Part shown: positions 9,099 through 48,113 of the stretch, piece by piece
How positions within the stretch are numbered: position 1 is the first letter of the stretch
Layout of the letters: the number at the start of each line of letters is the position of its first letter
From: Glycomyces luteolus
GTDB lineage: Bacteria > Actinomycetota > Actinomycetes > Mycobacteriales > Micromonosporaceae
Direction: 5' to 3'
DNA length: 64,000 nucleotides
Assembly: GCF_027622875.1 (NCBI RefSeq)
Contig: NZ_JAPZVP010000013.1
Span: 1 to 64,000, forward strand
Position numbers and translations under genes: made by a program
The notes under the pieces: generated by a model
What the model was told of the DNA's origin: nothing
Seen by the model: the letters and a program-made list of their open reading frames with translations, nothing else
Database searches by the model: none

Positions 9099-9271
9099 CC
9101 GCGCGGGGCCCCCCCGCCCGGGGGGGGGGGGGGGGCCCGGGGGGGGCCGGGGGGGGGGGCCCCCCCCCGCGGCGGGGGGGGGGGGGGCCCCGGGGGGGGC
9201 CCCCCCCGGCGCGCCCCCGCCCCCGCCCCCCCCGCCCCCCCCCGCGGGCCCCCCCCCCCCCCCGCCCCGCG
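9099..9271. other. 173-bp tract of only G and C, probable sequence artefact
   Basis: Between the last A at 9098 and the T at 9272 there is not one A or T. The tract is made of long homopolymer runs (up to about 15 G and 13 C). It lies between the convergent stops of copA and the MMPL gene, where a strong terminator hairpin would be expected. The pattern looks like base-calling or assembly failure through a GC hairpin and should not be read as biology or translated. Confidence 0.75.
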
Positions 9272-39777: not shown

Positions 39778-40479
39778 ATGACTGAGGAGCCGACGGGCTC
39801 CGAATCCGCCGAGGCCAATGTTTCACGTGAAACATTGGCCTCTGTGTTCGGAGCCGGAGATCCTGAAAGTGCCGGCGAGCGGATCGCCCTGGCCGAGGCC
39901 TACGTGGGTCTGCTCTCGACCATCGGGATCGAGCGCGGCCTGATCGGCCCACGCGAGGTACCGCGGTTGTGGGGACGGCACGTGCTGAGCAGCGCCGTGG
40001 TCGAGGAGCTGATCCCCGAGAAGTCCGACGTGCTCGACGTCGGCTCCGGCGGCGGACTGCCGGGCATCCCGCTCGCTATCGCGCGGCCGGACCTGTGGGT
40101 CACGCTCGTGGAGCCGATGCAGCGCCGCGTGGACTTCCTGACCGAGGTCATCGAGGCTCTCGGCATCTCGAACGTGGAAGTGCTGCGCGCCCGCGCCGCC
40201 GAGGTGGACCCGAAGGGCCAGGCGGACATCGTGGTGTCCCGAGCGGTGGCCCCGCTGGCGAAGCTCGTCGGCTGGTGCCTGCCGCTGGCCCGTGTCGGCG
40301 GCGCGATGCTGGCCATCAAGGGACAGGGCGCCTCGCTCGAGGTGACCGAGAGCGGCGGGCTCATCAAGCGAGCCGGCGGTGGCAAGGCCTCGATTCTCAC
40401 CTGCGGCGAGTCCAAGCTATCTGAGCAGGATGAGTTCACCATCCCCGCAACGGTAGTGAAGATCGAGCGGATCCGCTGA
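39778..40479 (+). CDS. rsmG: 16S rRNA (guanine527-N7)-methyltransferase
   Basis: The 233-residue GidB enzyme methylates G527 of 16S rRNA using SAM. Motifs: LLSTIGIERGLIGPREVPRLW, VLDVGSGGGLPGIPLAIARP (SAM loop, about residues 87-106), the VVSRAVAPLAKLVGW region. Loss of rsmG is known to give low-level streptomycin resistance in other bacteria. A perfect parS site is built into its 5' coding region and encodes part of the non-conserved N-terminus (VSRET). Confidence 0.95.
   Translation: MTEEPTGSESAEANVSRETLASVFGAGDPESAGERIALAEAYVGLLSTIGIERGLIGPREVPRLWGRHVLSSAVVEELIPEKSDVLDVGSGGGLPGIPLAIARPDLWVTLVEPMQRRVDFLTEVIEALGISNVEVLRARAAEVDPKGQADIVVSRAVAPLAKLVGWCLPLARVGGAMLAIKGQGASLEVTESGGLIKRAGGGKASILTCGESKLSEQDEFTIPATVVKIERIR
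39819..39834. promoter_or_regulatory. parS site 1, within rsmG
   Basis: Perfect TGTTTCACGTGAAACA, the ParB-binding centromere site. It is the middle of a 32-bp perfect palindrome (39811-39842) inside coding sequence. Confidence 0.95.
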
Positions 40480-40532: not shown

Positions 40533-40571
40533 AACGGATGCCGCGATGAGACCATCATCGCGGCATCCGTT
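40533..40571 (+). terminator. Terminator after rsmG
   Basis: AACGGATGCCGCGATGA pairs with TCATCGCGGCATCCGTT around a 5-nt loop: a 17-bp perfect stem, then CTTGTGGTTT. It separates the rpmH-rsmG operon from parAB. Confidence 0.85.
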
Positions 40572-40654: not shown

Positions 40655-40670
40655 TGTTTCACGTGAAACA
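40655..40670. promoter_or_regulatory. parS site 2, upstream of parA
   Basis: Perfect TGTTTCACGTGAAACA, 15 bp before the parA start codon, so ParB binding here could repress parAB. Confidence 0.95.
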
Positions 40671-40685: not shown

Positions 40686-41984
40686 GTGGCGGTGAACGTG
40701 CGCGACCCCCTTCCTTCTGAAGATCGTGAACTCCAGAACTCCCTTGGCGGCGATACCCCGGCCGAACGGCGCATCCGAAACCTCCTCGATGCGGCCGTGA
40801 GCGAAGAGGCGCCTCCGACTCGGCGGCACCGCTATCGAGAAACTTCACCGGCGCCGGGTGGCGCAGCCCCGGCCTTCGGCCAAGGTGGGCCAGAATCGGT
40901 GACGATGGAGTCCGGTGCGGACGGCGGCACATCGTCGGAGGCCCGGGCTGACAACGGGGGAGAGCGGGACGGGATGCCCAGAGGCACATCGCAGCGAGGT
41001 CGTTCGGGTCGGCATGTGGCACCGGACGAGGCAGCCAAGAACGGCAGAGTGAAGACTGAGGCGCCGGTGCCCGCGCAGCCCGACCCTCTTGATGACGACT
41101 TGCCGCTGGCGCGGGAAGCGCAGCGGGCCGTGCGGGTGCTCAATCCTTCAGGGAGCGTGACGATGCCGCGGCCGCCGCGCCGCCGAGTCATCGCGATCGC
41201 CAACCAGAAGGGCGGGGTCGGTAAGACCACCAGCACGGTGAACCTCGCGGTCGCCTTGGCGCTGCACGGGAACCGCGTGATGGTCATCGACCTCGACCCG
41301 CAGGGGAACGCCTCGACGGGCCTCGGCGTCGAGCACGGCGCGGGCACGCCGAGCGTGTACGAAGCCGTCGTGGAGGGCCAGTCGCTCGACGAGATCGCCA
41401 CTCCGGTCGACGGCATTCCTTCACTGGTGTGCGTTCCGGCGACGATCGACCTGGCCGGTGCCGAGGTCGAACTCGTCAACGTCGTGGCCCGTGAAGGCCG
41501 CCTTGAGAAGAGCATCGCGACCTACAGCGGGGAACTCGACTACATCTTCATCGACTGCCCGCCCTCCCTCGGCCTGCTCACGGTCAACGCGCTCGTGGCC
41601 GCCGAGGAGGTGCTGATCCCGATCCAGTGCGAGTACTACGCGCTCGAAGGACTGGGCCAGCTCCTGCGGAACATCGAACTCATCAAGGCGCACCTGAACG
41701 CGCGGCTGCGGGTCTCCACGATCCTGCTCACCATGTACGACAAGCGGACCAAGCTCGCCGATCAGGTGGAGCAGGAAGTGCGCGGGCACTTCAGCGAGAT
41801 CGTGCTCGACGCGGTCGTGCCGCGGAGTGTGCGCGTCTCCGAGGCACCCGGATACGGGCAGTCGATCATGACGTACGACCCCGGCTCCCGGGGTGCGACG
41901 AGCTATTTCGAAGCGGCCGAGGAGATCGCGCGCCGCGGCGCGAAGCTCTCCCGGCGGAGTAAGAACCAGAAGGGCGGGAACTAG
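40686..41984 (+). CDS. parA: Chromosome partitioning ATPase ParA
   Basis: The 432-residue protein has an acidic/basic disordered N-terminal extension of about 160 residues, then the ParA core VIAIANQKGGVGKTTSTVNL (deviant Walker A near 175-183), VMVIDLDPQGNAS, YIFIDCPPSLGLLT and IPIQCEYYALEGL. It drives origin segregation with ParB. Start GTG 40686, 15 bp after a parS site. Followed 3 bp later by parB. Confidence 0.95.
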   Translation: MAVNVRDPLPSEDRELQNSLGGDTPAERRIRNLLDAAVSEEAPPTRRHRYRETSPAPGGAAPAFGQGGPESVTMESGADGGTSSEARADNGGERDGMPRGTSQRGRSGRHVAPDEAAKNGRVKTEAPVPAQPDPLDDDLPLAREAQRAVRVLNPSGSVTMPRPPRRRVIAIANQKGGVGKTTSTVNLAVALALHGNRVMVIDLDPQGNASTGLGVEHGAGTPSVYEAVVEGQSLDEIATPVDGIPSLVCVPATIDLAGAEVELVNVVAREGRLEKSIATYSGELDYIFIDCPPSLGLLTVNALVAAEEVLIPIQCEYYALEGLGQLLRNIELIKAHLNARLRVSTILLTMYDKRTKLADQVEQEVRGHFSEIVLDAVVPRSVRVSEAPGYGQSIMTYDPGSRGATSYFEAAEEIARRGAKLSRRSKNQKGGN

Positions 41985-41987
41985 TCG

Positions 41988-43055
41988 ATGGCTGCGGCGA
42001 AACGCGGAGGGCTCGGTCGCGGACTGGGGGCGCTCATCCCCACCGGTCTGGCCGAGACCACGACGACCGAGGAGGAGCCGGAAGCGGCTCCCGCTCCGGT
42101 CGCGGCGCCCCGGCAGGCGGCCCCGAAGAAGCGCGATGTTTCACGTGAAACATCGACGCCGGCTCAGGCCGATGTTTCACGTGAAACATCGGAGGGACCG
42201 GAACTCGTGCCGGTCCCCGGGGCGAGCTTCCAGCTGATCCCGATCGGGGACATCGGCACGAACCCGAAGCAGCCGCGCCAGATCTTCGATGACGACCACC
42301 TCGCCGAACTTCAGACCTCCCTCACCGAGGTCGGGATGCTCCAGCCGATCGCGGTGCGCGAACGCACCCCCGAGGAGCCTCGCGAGGACGGTGCCCGCTT
42401 CGAGCTCGTCATGGGTGAGCGGCGACTCCGCGCCGCAACGGCGCTCGGCTGGGACGCGGTCCCGGCGATCGTGCGCCGCACCGCCGATGAGGAACTGCTC
42501 CGCGAAGCACTCCTCGAGAATATCCACCGTGTGCAGCTGAACCCGCTCGAAGAGGGCGCGGCCTATCAGCAACTGCTCGAAGAGTTCAACGTGACGCAGG
42601 AGGAGCTGTCGAAGAAGATCGGCCGCAGCCGCCCGCAGATCTCGAACATGATCCGACTCTTGGGCCTGCCGCCGACGGTGCAGACGAAGGTCGCCGCCGG
42701 TGTCCTCACCGCAGGCCACGCGCGGGCGCTGCTCGGCCTCGACAGCGCGGACTCGCAGGAGCACATCGCGGAGCGGATCATCAGCGAGGGGTTGTCGGTG
42801 CGGAGCACCGAGGAACTCGTGACGGCGAACCGCTTGGAGGAGAAGCCCGAGCTCGACGAGCCGCGCAGTGCCTCCGCGCGGAGCGCGAAAGACCGCATCA
42901 AGGCGCCCGGACTCGAGGAGTTGAAGGAGCGCCTCTCGGATCACTTCGAGACGCAGGTGGCGATCTCCTGGGGCCGCAAGAAGGGCAAGATCACCATCGA
43001 ATTCGGCTCGCTCGCCGACCTCGACCGCATCGTCGAACAGATCGGCATCAAATAA
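41988..43055 (+). CDS. parB: Chromosome partitioning protein ParB
   Basis: The 355-residue ParB is a CTP-dependent DNA clamp. The Arg-rich N-terminus AAAKRGGLGRGLGALIP is the ParA-contacting part. The CTP-binding domain holds the GERRLRAATALGWDAVPAIV motif (near residue 143), followed by ENIHRVQLNPLEEG and the helix-turn-helix SKKIGRSRPQISNMIRLLGL that reads parS. A C-terminal dimerisation domain ends the protein. Two parS sites lie inside its own 5' coding region and encode the repeated peptide DVSRETS. Confidence 0.96.
   Translation: MAAAKRGGLGRGLGALIPTGLAETTTTEEEPEAAPAPVAAPRQAAPKKRDVSRETSTPAQADVSRETSEGPELVPVPGASFQLIPIGDIGTNPKQPRQIFDDDHLAELQTSLTEVGMLQPIAVRERTPEEPREDGARFELVMGERRLRAATALGWDAVPAIVRRTADEELLREALLENIHRVQLNPLEEGAAYQQLLEEFNVTQEELSKKIGRSRPQISNMIRLLGLPPTVQTKVAAGVLTAGHARALLGLDSADSQEHIAERIISEGLSVRSTEELVTANRLEEKPELDEPRSASARSAKDRIKAPGLEELKERLSDHFETQVAISWGRKKGKITIEFGSLADLDRIVEQIGIK
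42137..42152. promoter_or_regulatory. parS site 3, within parB
   Basis: Perfect TGTTTCACGTGAAACA inside the parB coding sequence, in the frame that reads VSRET. Confidence 0.95.
42173..42188. promoter_or_regulatory. parS site 4, within parB
   Basis: Perfect TGTTTCACGTGAAACA 36 bp after site 3, in the same reading frame. The pair is spaced about 3.5 helical turns. Confidence 0.95.
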
Positions 43056-43196: not shown

Positions 43197-43234
43197 GGCC
43201 GGGGCGATGTTTCACGTGAAACATCGCCCCGGCC
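43197..43234. terminator. 38-bp perfect palindrome with parS at its centre
   Basis: The arms (GGCCGGGGCGA and its complement) extend the parS 16-mer at 43208-43223 into a 38-bp perfect palindrome. It separates the convergent parB and GNAT genes, so as RNA it would form a 19-bp hairpin in both directions, like a bidirectional terminator. Confidence 0.7.
43208..43223. promoter_or_regulatory. parS site 5
   Basis: Perfect TGTTTCACGTGAAACA at the centre of the 38-bp palindrome downstream of parB. Confidence 0.95.
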
Positions 43235-43255: not shown

Positions 43256-43831
43256 TCAGGAGAGCTCCCGCCACATGATGATGTCGTCCCGGTAGTCGTC
43301 GTCGGCCATGCGCACGGCGCGCGGCAGACGTCCGACCTCGGTGAAGCCGTGCCGCCTATAGAAGGCGTCGGCACCAGTGCCCGAGCGGACCTTGAGGCTG
43401 AGCGCATCGAGCTTCAGCTCTTCGCGCGCGACTTGATCGACTGCCGCCAGGAGTTTGCCACCGAGACCGCCACCCTGTCGGGAGGGATCGACCTGGACGT
43501 GGCGGATGGTCCGCCAGCCCTGTCGCGGCGGGCTGTCGTTTGATGTGAGAACACACCAAGCGACAATGGCGGCTCCTTCCTTTAGAGCGACCAGCGTGTC
43601 AGTCTGGTCGATCACTCGCGCGAGAATGGAAACGGTGTGAGGGCGAACCTCTTCGATGTTGACCGGCGGGACGAACCCGACGGAACCGCCGGCGTTCGTC
43701 ACTCTCACCCAGAGATGGCTGAGTTCGTCAACGAGCGCGGCAGTCACCGGGGGGTCCACGAGCACGGCGATGTCGCCGCCCGAAACGGGCGACGCCTCCG
43801 GCATGGAGCTATCAGTAACTGTTGCTTGCAC
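43256..43831 (-). CDS. GNAT family N-acetyltransferase
   Basis: The 191-residue protein has an N-terminal extension, then the GNAT core IRHVQVDPSRQGGGLGGKLLAAVD (acetyl-CoA loop, about residues 108-131), LKLDALSLKVRSGTGADAFY and YRRHGFTEVGRLPRAVR. Substrate unknown. GTG 43831 has GGAGG close by; an internal ATG at 43804 lacks an RBS. It is convergent with parB and divergent from the HIT-like gene. Confidence 0.83.
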   Translation of the reverse strand: MQATVTDSSMPEASPVSGGDIAVLVDPPVTAALVDELSHLWVRVTNAGGSVGFVPPVNIEEVRPHTVSILARVIDQTDTLVALKEGAAIVAWCVLTSNDSPPRQGWRTIRHVQVDPSRQGGGLGGKLLAAVDQVAREELKLDALSLKVRSGTGADAFYRRHGFTEVGRLPRAVRMADDDYRDDIIMWRELS

Positions 43832-44064
43832 GCCCTCCAGCTTGCCCTACCGACCCGCCCGTCCGACAGTCCCTTCCCGCCATATGGGCGCACGTCACTA
43901 TCGGCCCCGAAAACCGTATTCTGACGACGATTGCCCTGCTTCACGCACTAAATGTCAGTCCACTATCGGGTGTCGATCCTGCGACGCGCCGCGTAACCTC
44001 GTGGAAATCTGCCAAAAGGTCGATTCCGGCTGTTTCCAGTCTCGCATTCATGCGGTATTTTTCG

Positions 44065-44682
44065 ATGGTGGCATCTGCGAGCACCCCCGGCCCGAATTCC
44101 AAGCCCGACCTGACGAACCAGAGCCGACACCCGAATCCGCCCGCGAACGGCGTGCGCCCGACCCTGCCCCCATTCGTCGACTGGCCCGCCTTTCCGTTCG
44201 AAGGCGAGCTTCGCATCAAACCCCTGCAGGAACCGGTGGACGCCGAGCCGCCGCGCCGCGGCGACCGCCAAGAGCAGTGCGCCGCCTGCCACACCCCCGA
44301 CTCCGCCTACCTCTGGTCCAACGAGCGGTGGCGCCTCAAGAGCCCGCCAGCGCCCAGCGGCCTGCCCGTGGTGGTGATCCTGGAGCCGCGCGCCCACCTC
44401 GACCTAGGGGACCTCTCGACCATGCACGCGGCCGAGCTCGGTGTGCTGACGGTGCGGCTGGAGCGGGCGATCCGCTCGCTCGAGTCGGTCGCGCAGGTTC
44501 ACGTGAACCGCTGGGGCGACGGCACCGCGCATCTCCAGCAGTGGTTCCTGGCCCGCCCGCACGGCTATCTCCAACTGCGGGGCCCGTTCATGACGATGTG
44601 GGATGAGATCCTGCCGCCGGTGGAAGAGCACGAGTGGCAGATGAACCTGGAGTACATCGCTGCTTGGCTCTCGGACGACTGA
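44065..44682 (+). CDS. HIT-like domain protein
   Basis: About 205 residues. Conserved blocks are LPPFVDWPAFPFEGELRIKPLQ, a CxxC pair in QCAACHTPDSAYLW, and the HIT-like stretch QVHVNRWGDGTAHLQQWFLA followed by LQLRGPFMTMWDEILPP. HIT proteins are nucleotide hydrolases or transferases with a histidine triad; here the triad is degenerate (HVNRWGDGTAHLQQW). The start is unsure: ATG 44065 is used, GTG 44152 is possible, and the open frame further upstream is not homologous. It ends 3 bp before the large parS palindrome. Confidence 0.7.
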   Translation: MVASASTPGPNSKPDLTNQSRHPNPPANGVRPTLPPFVDWPAFPFEGELRIKPLQEPVDAEPPRRGDRQEQCAACHTPDSAYLWSNERWRLKSPPAPSGLPVVVILEPRAHLDLGDLSTMHAAELGVLTVRLERAIRSLESVAQVHVNRWGDGTAHLQQWFLARPHGYLQLRGPFMTMWDEILPPVEEHEWQMNLEYIAAWLSDD

Positions 44683-44685
44683 CGC

Positions 44686-44743
44686 CCGAACGACTGAGGG
44701 TGTCGATGTTTCACGTGAAACATCGACACCCTCAGTCGTTCGG
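44686..44743. terminator. 58-bp perfect palindrome with parS at its centre
   Basis: Each half is 29 bp with no mismatch, from CCGAACGACTGAGGG inward to the parS 16-mer at 44707-44722. It fills the gap between the convergent HIT-like gene (stop 44682) and ddl (stop 44759). As RNA it would make a long hairpin on either strand, so terminator and centromere functions appear combined. Confidence 0.75.
44707..44722. promoter_or_regulatory. parS site 6
   Basis: Perfect TGTTTCACGTGAAACA at the centre of the 58-bp palindrome; the last of six sites between 39.8 and 44.7 kb. Confidence 0.95.
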
Positions 44744-44758: not shown

Positions 44759-45724
44759 CTATGAGCGGGCGATGGCCCGGCGGACCATGGTCGCGAGGGC
44801 CTCGCCGAAGTCGAGGCCCGCGGCCTTGATCGCCATGGGCAGCAGGGAAGTCTCGGTGGTGCCGGGGGCGACGTTCGCCTCCAGCACTTGGATGCCGCCA
44901 GCGTCGTCGACGATCATGTCGATGCGGGACATGTCGCCGAGGCCGAGCGTGCGGTGGACCTGGACGGCCAGTTCGGCGACGCGGGTCGCGACCGGCTCGC
45001 TCATGGCCGCCGGGACGGTCCAGCGCGTCGCGCCCGGGTTGTACCGGGCGGCGTAGTCGTAGTCGCCGTGCAGCGGTGCGATCTCCACCGGCGGGAGGGC
45101 CGTGGGGCCGTCGCCGAGGTCGACCACGCCGACCGCGATATCCCGGCCTTCGACGAAGGATTCGATGAGCGCTTCGTCGCTGTAGGAGAAGCAGCCCATC
45201 ATCGCCGAGGGGAAGTCGTCCTCCTTGTGCACCGCGTGCACGCCGAGGCCCGAGCCGCCGGAGTTGGGCTTGACGACCAGCGGCAGGCCCATCTTCGCGG
45301 CGATCCGGTCCAGGAGCTTACGGGCCCCGAAGTCCGAGAACGCCTGGCGCGGCATCACGGTCCAGTCCGGCGTGGGGATCCCGGCCGTGCGGAGCAGGTC
45401 CTTGGCGGTGATCTTGTTCCACGCGCGGCGCGCGCCGACCGAGCCGGTGCCCACGATCGGGATGTCGGAGAGTTCGAGCACCGCTTGCAGGGAGCCGTCC
45501 TCGCCGGGGGAGCCGTGCACGAGCGGCAGCACCACGTCGGGCGGGAACTCCTGGAGGGCGGGCAGCAGCTCGCCGTCCAGGTCCCGGACGTCGCAGACCA
45601 TGCCCTGGCGCTGCAGGGCGTCGGCGGCCCGGCGGCCGGACTTCAGCGAGACCTCGTGCTCGTAGGACATGCCTCCGGCGAGGATGAGGACGCGGATGTC
45701 CGAGGCTGCGGGACCCGCCTTCAC
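44759..45724 (-). CDS. ddl: D-alanine-D-alanine ligase family protein
   Basis: The 321-residue ATP-grasp ligase joins two D-Ala for peptidoglycan precursors. It has VLILAGGMSYEHEVSLKSG, LPLVHGSPGEDGSLQAVLEL, NKITAKDLLRTAGIPTPDW, LPLVVKPNSGGSGLGV, and the metal site near VLEANVAPGTTETS. The last block differs from the usual EVNTLPG form, so it may be a paralogue with its own role. GTG 45724 overlaps the stop of the PLP aminotransferase gene (GTGA), so the two are coupled. Confidence 0.88.
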   Translation of the reverse strand: MKAGPAASDIRVLILAGGMSYEHEVSLKSGRRAADALQRQGMVCDVRDLDGELLPALQEFPPDVVLPLVHGSPGEDGSLQAVLELSDIPIVGTGSVGARRAWNKITAKDLLRTAGIPTPDWTVMPRQAFSDFGARKLLDRIAAKMGLPLVVKPNSGGSGLGVHAVHKEDDFPSAMMGCFSYSDEALIESFVEGRDIAVGVVDLGDGPTALPPVEIAPLHGDYDYAARYNPGATRWTVPAAMSEPVATRVAELAVQVHRTLGLGDMSRIDMIVDDAGGIQVLEANVAPGTTETSLLPMAIKAAGLDFGEALATMVRRAIARS

Positions 45725-48012: not shown

Positions 48013-48084
48013 CGGATTTTCCGGAAATGTCCGCCCGGGGGACCCCTGAAGTTAACGCTATCGCGGGTGTATGACATGAATCGG
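48013..48084 (+). repeat. Intergenic repeat, copy B (before trxA)
   Basis: Similar to 43087-43159: both share CGGAT-TTCC, a GGGACCCCTG core and a terminal AATCGG in the same order and spacing. It lies 19 bp after the acetyltransferase stop and runs into the terminator palindrome. Confidence 0.55.
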
Positions 48085-48113
48085 AGGACGGAACCGCGGT
48101 TCCGTCCTCCGAT
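48080..48113. terminator. Bidirectional terminator between convergent genes
   Basis: A 34-bp perfect palindrome (half: ATCGGAGGACGGAACCG) between the stops of the acetyltransferase (47994) and trxA (48137). Same loop-less design as the parS palindromes, but without parS. Confidence 0.8.

Follow-up and report, generated by a model that had tools for sequence, protein, structure and literature searches.

The Glycomyces luteolus genome carries a parS site at the exact centre of a perfect 58-bp palindrome located between two convergent genes. We propose, with a probability of about 0.6 and on the grounds of its sequence, that this palindrome is a two-function element, whose central 16 bp would act as parS and which as a whole would be an intrinsic bidirectional terminator for both genes. 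Both at this palindrome (site A) and at a shorter one situated 1.5 kb from it (site B), the core is fixed, and the arms are free in sequence yet held to complementarity.

Genomic context and distribution of parS sites

The term window refers here to the whole stretch of DNA that was analysed, 64 kb in length. The gene order at ~40-45 kb is rsmG, parA, parB, a GNAT acetyltransferase gene, a conserved hypothetical gene and a D-Ala-D-Ala ligase-like gene (Table 1). The exact parS 16-mer is present seven times in the whole genome, and six of these copies lie inside the window beside parA and parB, compared with an expectation of 0.05 matches with up to two mismatches. Being exact matches to the consensus near parAB, these 16-mers are predicted to be the parS sites of a chromosomal ParABS system. 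The seventh copy (L007 1501-1516) is inside a long ORF that we take to resemble metE, and it is unextended (arm 9, on a scale of perfect arm length where 8 corresponds to parS alone).

The near-relative sample consists of 21 loci (L008-L028) out of 28 returned, belonging to 20 Glycomyces and one actinomycete MAG, which makes 22 loci with the window included. The ligase gene shares 94% identity with its counterpart in Glycomyces sp. YM15. The conserved hypothetical gene upstream of site A is found in 21/21 loci of the relatives, with 73-94% identity over the matched part, and no Pfam or NCBIfam model fits it.

Table 1. Position of the palindromes, parS sites and genes of the parAB region in the Glycomyces luteolus window
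Feature	Position	Strand	Remarks
parS inside rsmG	39819..39834		exact match; centre of 32-bp palindrome 39811-39842, arm 16
parS before parA	40655..40670		exact match; unextended, arm 9
parA	40686..41984	+	PF13614; ORF start uncertain
parB	41988..43055	+	PF02195, PF17762, PF23552; TIGR00180
parS inside parB	42137..42152		exact match; unextended, arm 11
parS inside parB	42173..42188		exact match; unextended, arm 12
Site B, perfect palindrome of 38 bp between convergent parB and GNAT gene	43197..43234		arm 19
parS at site B centre	43208..43223		exact match
GNAT acetyltransferase gene, converging on site B	43256..43831	-	PF00583
Conserved hypothetical gene upstream of site A	43822..44682	+	ORF start uncertain
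Site A, perfect palindrome of 58 bp (2 x 29 bp)	44686..44743		predicted bidirectional terminator hairpin
Left arm of site A outside parS	44686..44706	+	covaries with right arm, pairs 9-18, 20 Glycomyces loci
parS 16-mer, apex of the predicted site A hairpin	44707..44722		exact match
Right arm of site A outside parS	44723..44743	+	covaries with left arm
D-alanine--D-alanine ligase-like gene, converging on site A	44759..45724	-	PF07478, PF01820; NF002378 above cut-off

Site A and its predicted hairpin

The gap harbouring site A measures 76 bp; the upstream stop codon ends at 44682, 3 bp before the palindrome, and on the other side the ligase ORF has its stop codon starting at 44759, 15 bp beyond the palindrome. 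The preliminary description of this DNA, which had reported a perfect parS-centred palindrome between convergent genes, is thus correct in all its coordinates and in both stop distances. No other even palindrome in the window is as long as site A; the next ones have arms of 19, 17 and 16, and parS is present in three of the four. At 69% G+C, the probability of 21 extra pairs by chance is ~4e-12 per site. The final codons of the upstream gene and its stop (ACGACTGA, 44675-44682) are found again 15 bp on, within the left arm (window 44675-44697), a pattern that resembles a duplication of the gene end.

RNA folding predicts one long hairpin on both strands at sites A and B, with z-scores from -6.4 to -11.0, the values for site A being -57.7 kcal/mol (z -11.0) on the + strand and -55.6 kcal/mol (z -9.3) on the - strand. 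Site A therefore has the stable GC-rich hairpin shortly 3' of a stop codon that characterises intrinsic terminators, and the compensatory stem changes across relatives described below are also expected of them. With regard to T content, positions 18-29 from the centre reach, on the right/left strand and averaged over the relatives, 0.32/0.33 at site A and 0.44/0.43 at site B, compared with 0.16 and 0.18 farther out; these positions are partly inside the arms of the long-armed members, the window included, and the left and right values are therefore not independent. In this average over relatives, each strand is enriched in T where it exits the hairpin, as for a bidirectional terminator. Similar T contents at these positions (0.33/0.29) are found around the unextended parS before parA. 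The predicted hairpin and gene convergence are present at site A itself, and T-rich tails on both strands as an average over relatives: within the window, no T-rich tail follows the site A arms, and site A is absent from the five terminator-like hits of the window scan, for which shuffles give 4.0. At site B, the terminator scan finds a terminator-like match with a T-rich tail on the - strand.

Similar hairpins occur elsewhere in this genome. A custom gene caller delimited 31 convergent gaps of 15-300 bp in the window and in 360 kb of the same genome. Of these, 12 contain a perfect stem of at least 8 with a short loop; apart from sites A and B, this applies to 10 of the 29 other gaps, and these ten hairpins lack parS. 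The longest stems of the 31 gaps are those of the two parS hairpins (27 and 17, the next being 16), with site A the longest of all. A 34-bp perfect palindrome without parS, located 3.4 kb from site A (48080-48113) between a convergent pair made up of a GNAT-like gene and a thioredoxin-domain ORF, has the same build as the parS hairpins. An ordinary hairpin at 40533-40571, one of the five terminator-like hits of the scan (4.0 expected), may belong to rsmG itself, and the parS 84 bp beyond this hairpin is unextended. Another convergent gap (window 9151-9209) contains two perfect palindromes made of eight/nine-G runs followed by C.

Covariation of the arms in Glycomyces

Of the 22 loci, 20 retain an exact parS at site A and 19 do so at site B. 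The exceptions are L019 (one mismatch) and L025, where both exact parS and hairpin are lost, for site A, and L024 (one mismatch), L023 and L027, the sequence of the last two hardly extending to the site, for site B. Arms of at least 17 are found at site A in 17/20 loci, the exceptions being L008, with mismatches, and L020 and L023, in which parS is unextended; the long site A gap of L020 carries a separate 16-bp stem. At site B, the arms reach at least 16 in 19/19 loci.

At the ten pairs that adjoin parS (pairs 9-18), Watson-Crick pairing is found in 187 of 200 cells at site A (20 loci) and in 189 of 190 at site B (19 loci), with no G-T cell at either site and two A-C cells out of 390 in total. 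For the parS before parA and those in parB, 78/190 and 153/320 cells, respectively, are Watson-Crick at these pairs, so that the covariation of sites A and B is absent there. Counted on the ligase-gene tree, 8 of whose 19 inner branches are weak, at least 23 changes of Watson-Crick pair type have occurred at each of sites A and B, each altering both arms around a fixed parS; one event may account for the changes at adjacent pairs. Arms that covary around an invariant core were what the preliminary description had named as support for selection on an RNA hairpin, and both sites display this pattern in Glycomyces. The exceptions L020, L023 and L025 speak against the terminator reading of site A, as does its distance of 165-581 bp from the stop of the upstream gene in 8/19 relatives, although it is within ~60 bp of the ligase end in 17/20 loci.

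The parS inside rsmG behaves differently from sites A and B, since its added arms (pairs 9-16), which are within coding sequence, are invariant in 17/17 loci. Termination makes little sense as an account of this palindrome, because it is inside a coding sequence. Its invariant arms include the Leu codon TTG, which represents 528 of the 11871 Leu codons in called genes.

Extended parS sites in other actinobacteria

The order sample comprised 60 loci of ~16 kb around parB (~0.94 Mb) from 10 families, i.e., 60 of the 116 genomes with a ParB match. All of its even palindromes with arms of at least 13 (7/7) are centred on parS-like cores, and four of these are between convergent genes, one in a tandem gap, one in coding sequence and one unclassed, according to a simple codon-usage caller that misses and mis-starts genes, in this sample more than in the others. 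At L123 (6014-6055), a 42-bp perfect palindrome with the variant core GTCCACGTGGAC occupies a convergent gap 3.2 kb from the parS-centred one, and its core may be a degenerate parS retained as a terminator.

When 98 genomes of the class were searched by pattern, the matches pointed to one family (f33), which looks like Streptomycetaceae. The first sample contained twenty 20-kb stretches, from the five f33 genomes of that search, all of one genus (g68), and, for one stretch, from a genome of another family, and the second contained forty stretches from 22 genomes of other f33 genera. The stretches were picked for their parS content after the matched flanks had been seen, hence not blind, and they cover many of the sites among the matches listed. 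The counts leave aside parS close to the end of a stretch, as well as parS that lacked a called gene on either flank (two in the first sample). In the first sample, arms of at least 13 were found at 14/28 convergent sites versus 2/43 other sites (Fisher p 1.2e-5, two unclassed sites excluded). In the second sample, this link was gone (4/44 versus 11/109, p 1.0). As the second sample contradicts the first, to which a difference between genera may contribute, the convergent-gap rule was dropped and nearness to a stop codon was adopted.

The extended tandem sites are mostly just 3' of a stop codon. The counts of stop distance follow a stricter hairpin rule, because adjacent parS pairs pair trivially and inflate the looser score. 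With this rule, parS is extended at 30/93 sites up to 60 bp from the upstream stop and at 5/83 sites farther away, both sets taken together, with 13/33 versus 1/21 (p 0.005) in the first set and 17/60 versus 4/62 (p 0.002) in the second; the 60-bp cut was set after viewing the data, and matching sites of related species are counted repeatedly. By the same rule, extension is rare in coding sequence (1/37 parS). The hairpin centre of the extended sites has a median position 36-37 bp 3' of the stop. When right flanks were exchanged among sites of one context as a shuffle control in the Streptomycetaceae-like samples, arms of at least 13 were seen 18 times versus a shuffled mean of 0.58 for convergent sites, 10 versus 1.26 for tandem, 2 versus 0.22 for divergent and 1 versus 0.48 for coding sequence. 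The earlier proposal of a bidirectional terminator sharing its centre with parS thus draws partial support from arm covariation, from arms that differ in sequence between matching gaps of four genomes of another family, from T-enrichment on both strands in relatives and from stop-codon nearness, but the part that ties it to convergent genes fails in the second sample.

The extended sites display three builds. In the first, parS is the exact centre of the hairpin; in the second, the loop is beside parS (L179, L182, L183, L184 and L186); and in the third, two parS copies pair together inside further complementary arms, with centres at L199 18125-18142, L200 7754-7773, L201 9005-9024 and L203 5191-5209 and spacers of 3-5 bases. 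Two groups of gaps, formed by single linkage and hence loose, were checked. The first is flanked by genes that we take to encode a putative serine hydrolase and a GNAT protein; in four genomes, both flanks matching in three of them, it holds arms of 18, 25, 15 and 17 whose sequences differ. The second is beside a presumably tRNA-nucleotidyltransferase-like gene, with one flank matching in six/six pairs and the other in three; its four genomes have two parS each, and 8/8 are extended, with arms of 14-26. The loosely matched gaps of other genera often hold unextended sites.

Mutual exclusion with separate hairpins was also considered. The counts were 1/8 versus 6/7 at first and then 2/29 versus 20/66, and gaps without parS have separate hairpins in 99/545 cases. 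This candidate was rejected, the exclusion vanishing after length matching to parS-free gaps (2 seen, 2.3 expected); relative to length-matched zones of unextended parS, 5.9 second hairpins are expected, and 4% of resamples are as low.

Proposed mechanism and alternative explanations

The parS site is an inverted repeat whose RNA would pair with itself around an ACGU loop, and it could therefore form the apex of a hairpin. A parS landing or arising a few tens of bases 3' of a stop codon would already be half a terminator, to which selection for 3'-end formation could add complementary arms and then keep them; the sequence of the arms would drift, with the core held fixed by ParB. In the alternative order, an existing terminator would acquire the parS core. 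Either way, converging polymerases would halt at the ParB loading site rather than run through it. Transcripts would end at the palindrome, and we infer that the benefit is a ParB loading site kept free of through-transcription. Tentatively, this could apply in general to actinobacterial parS sites found shortly (some tens of bases) beyond a stop codon, which would be systematically built as terminators with covarying arms (single-parS, offset or double-parS), so that ParB loading is shielded, and bound ParB might tune termination.

The lack of a T-rich tail at site A in the window would also fit a hairpin that does not terminate transcription but shields RNA 3' ends generated by Rho or nucleases, its arms being kept for RNA stability. 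In Streptomyces clavuligerus, a U-rich tail is present at only 182 of 535 highly structured 3' ends; according to the authors, the others may be I-shaped terminators or Rho-dependent ends (PMC8269248). The T-enrichment on both strands over relatives, strongest at site B, argues against such protection, which we consider unlikely. The likeness of site A to the other gap hairpins of the genome does not decide between termination and protection, because those hairpins could share a protective role. A distinctly unlikely account is that the arms are a by-product, palindromes growing and self-correcting by template switching where unopposed, with parS as the seed. The scarcity of intermediates among the 390 cells (no G-T, two A-C) is expected if one event changes both arms, and the rarity of extension in coding sequence fits as well; however, extended parS sites are also rare (5/83) more than 60 bp from the upstream stop, although these positions are non-coding too, template switching does not predict T-enrichment, and some extended sites have their loop beside parS (L182, L184, L186).

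Arms acting in DNA, as a cruciform or as a longer ParB or SMC-loading signal, would account for the perfect even symmetry and for the conservation of the 32-bp rsmG palindrome where RNA termination is improbable. Yet the arm sequence differs between sites and families, which makes a sequence-specific reader unlikely; one parS does not form the centre of the offset-loop and double-parS hairpins; and a DNA-level role does not predict stop-codon nearness, so that we regard it as very unlikely. Chance has practically no likelihood, given the probability of ~4e-12 per site and the conservation of long arms in 17/20 loci at site A and 19/19 at site B.

If the palindromes do combine parS with a terminator, this would explain the position of many actinobacterial parS sites. 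It would also suggest how the loading site of the sliding ParB clamp coexists with RNA polymerase, namely, by the placing of parS where transcription ends, and would provide a second DNA-recognition motif, after the uptake signals, that doubles as a terminator stem. Deleting such a parS might also delete a terminator, a possible confounder in parS deletion studies.

Comparison with known systems

A literature search, covering titles and the starts of abstracts of mostly open-licence papers, returned none on parS within terminators, and the word terminator occurs 0 times in PMC7022226, PMC12511625, PMC4852455 and PMC8743542. The chromosomal ParABS systems of Streptomyces and Corynebacterium, with their parS clusters near oriC, share the core motif and the parAB neighbourhood with the sites described here. 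In C. glutamicum, 9 of the 10 parS are intergenic, and the paper lacks the word terminator, its passages on parS making no mention of extended arms or of a position after stop codons (PMC7083940). The parS at gidB in Mycobacterium, also an actinobacterium, likewise sits on a transcription signal, but it overlaps a promoter and not a terminator (PMC2346475).

With GC-rich intrinsic terminators, including the bidirectional or I-shaped ones, the parS hairpins have in common long GC-rich stems and U tails that are weak at best. Unlike in these terminators, the predicted apex of the parS hairpin is a protein-binding centromere site, and the top 7-8 pairs are therefore fixed in sequence. Streptomyces terminators have long stems and few U, and their 3' ends are at a median of 66-76 nt from the upstream CDS (PMC12207403), which suits a hairpin centre at 36-37 bp after the stop in the extended sites.

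By analogy, the parS-apex terminator hairpin is best read as the centromere counterpart of the DNA uptake signal sequences of Neisseria and Pasteurellaceae, which have been co-opted into terminators (Kingsford et al. 2007, PMC1852404). There, as proposed here for parS, a short DNA motif with a non-transcriptional function is reused in a terminator hairpin. The uptake signals are very numerous and form the hairpin from closely spaced complementary copies of 9-11 nt (PMC1852404); in Glycomyces, by contrast, a single palindromic centromere site forms the predicted apex, at two sites per genome. The double-parS hairpins of some Streptomycetaceae-like genomes are closer to the uptake-signal form.
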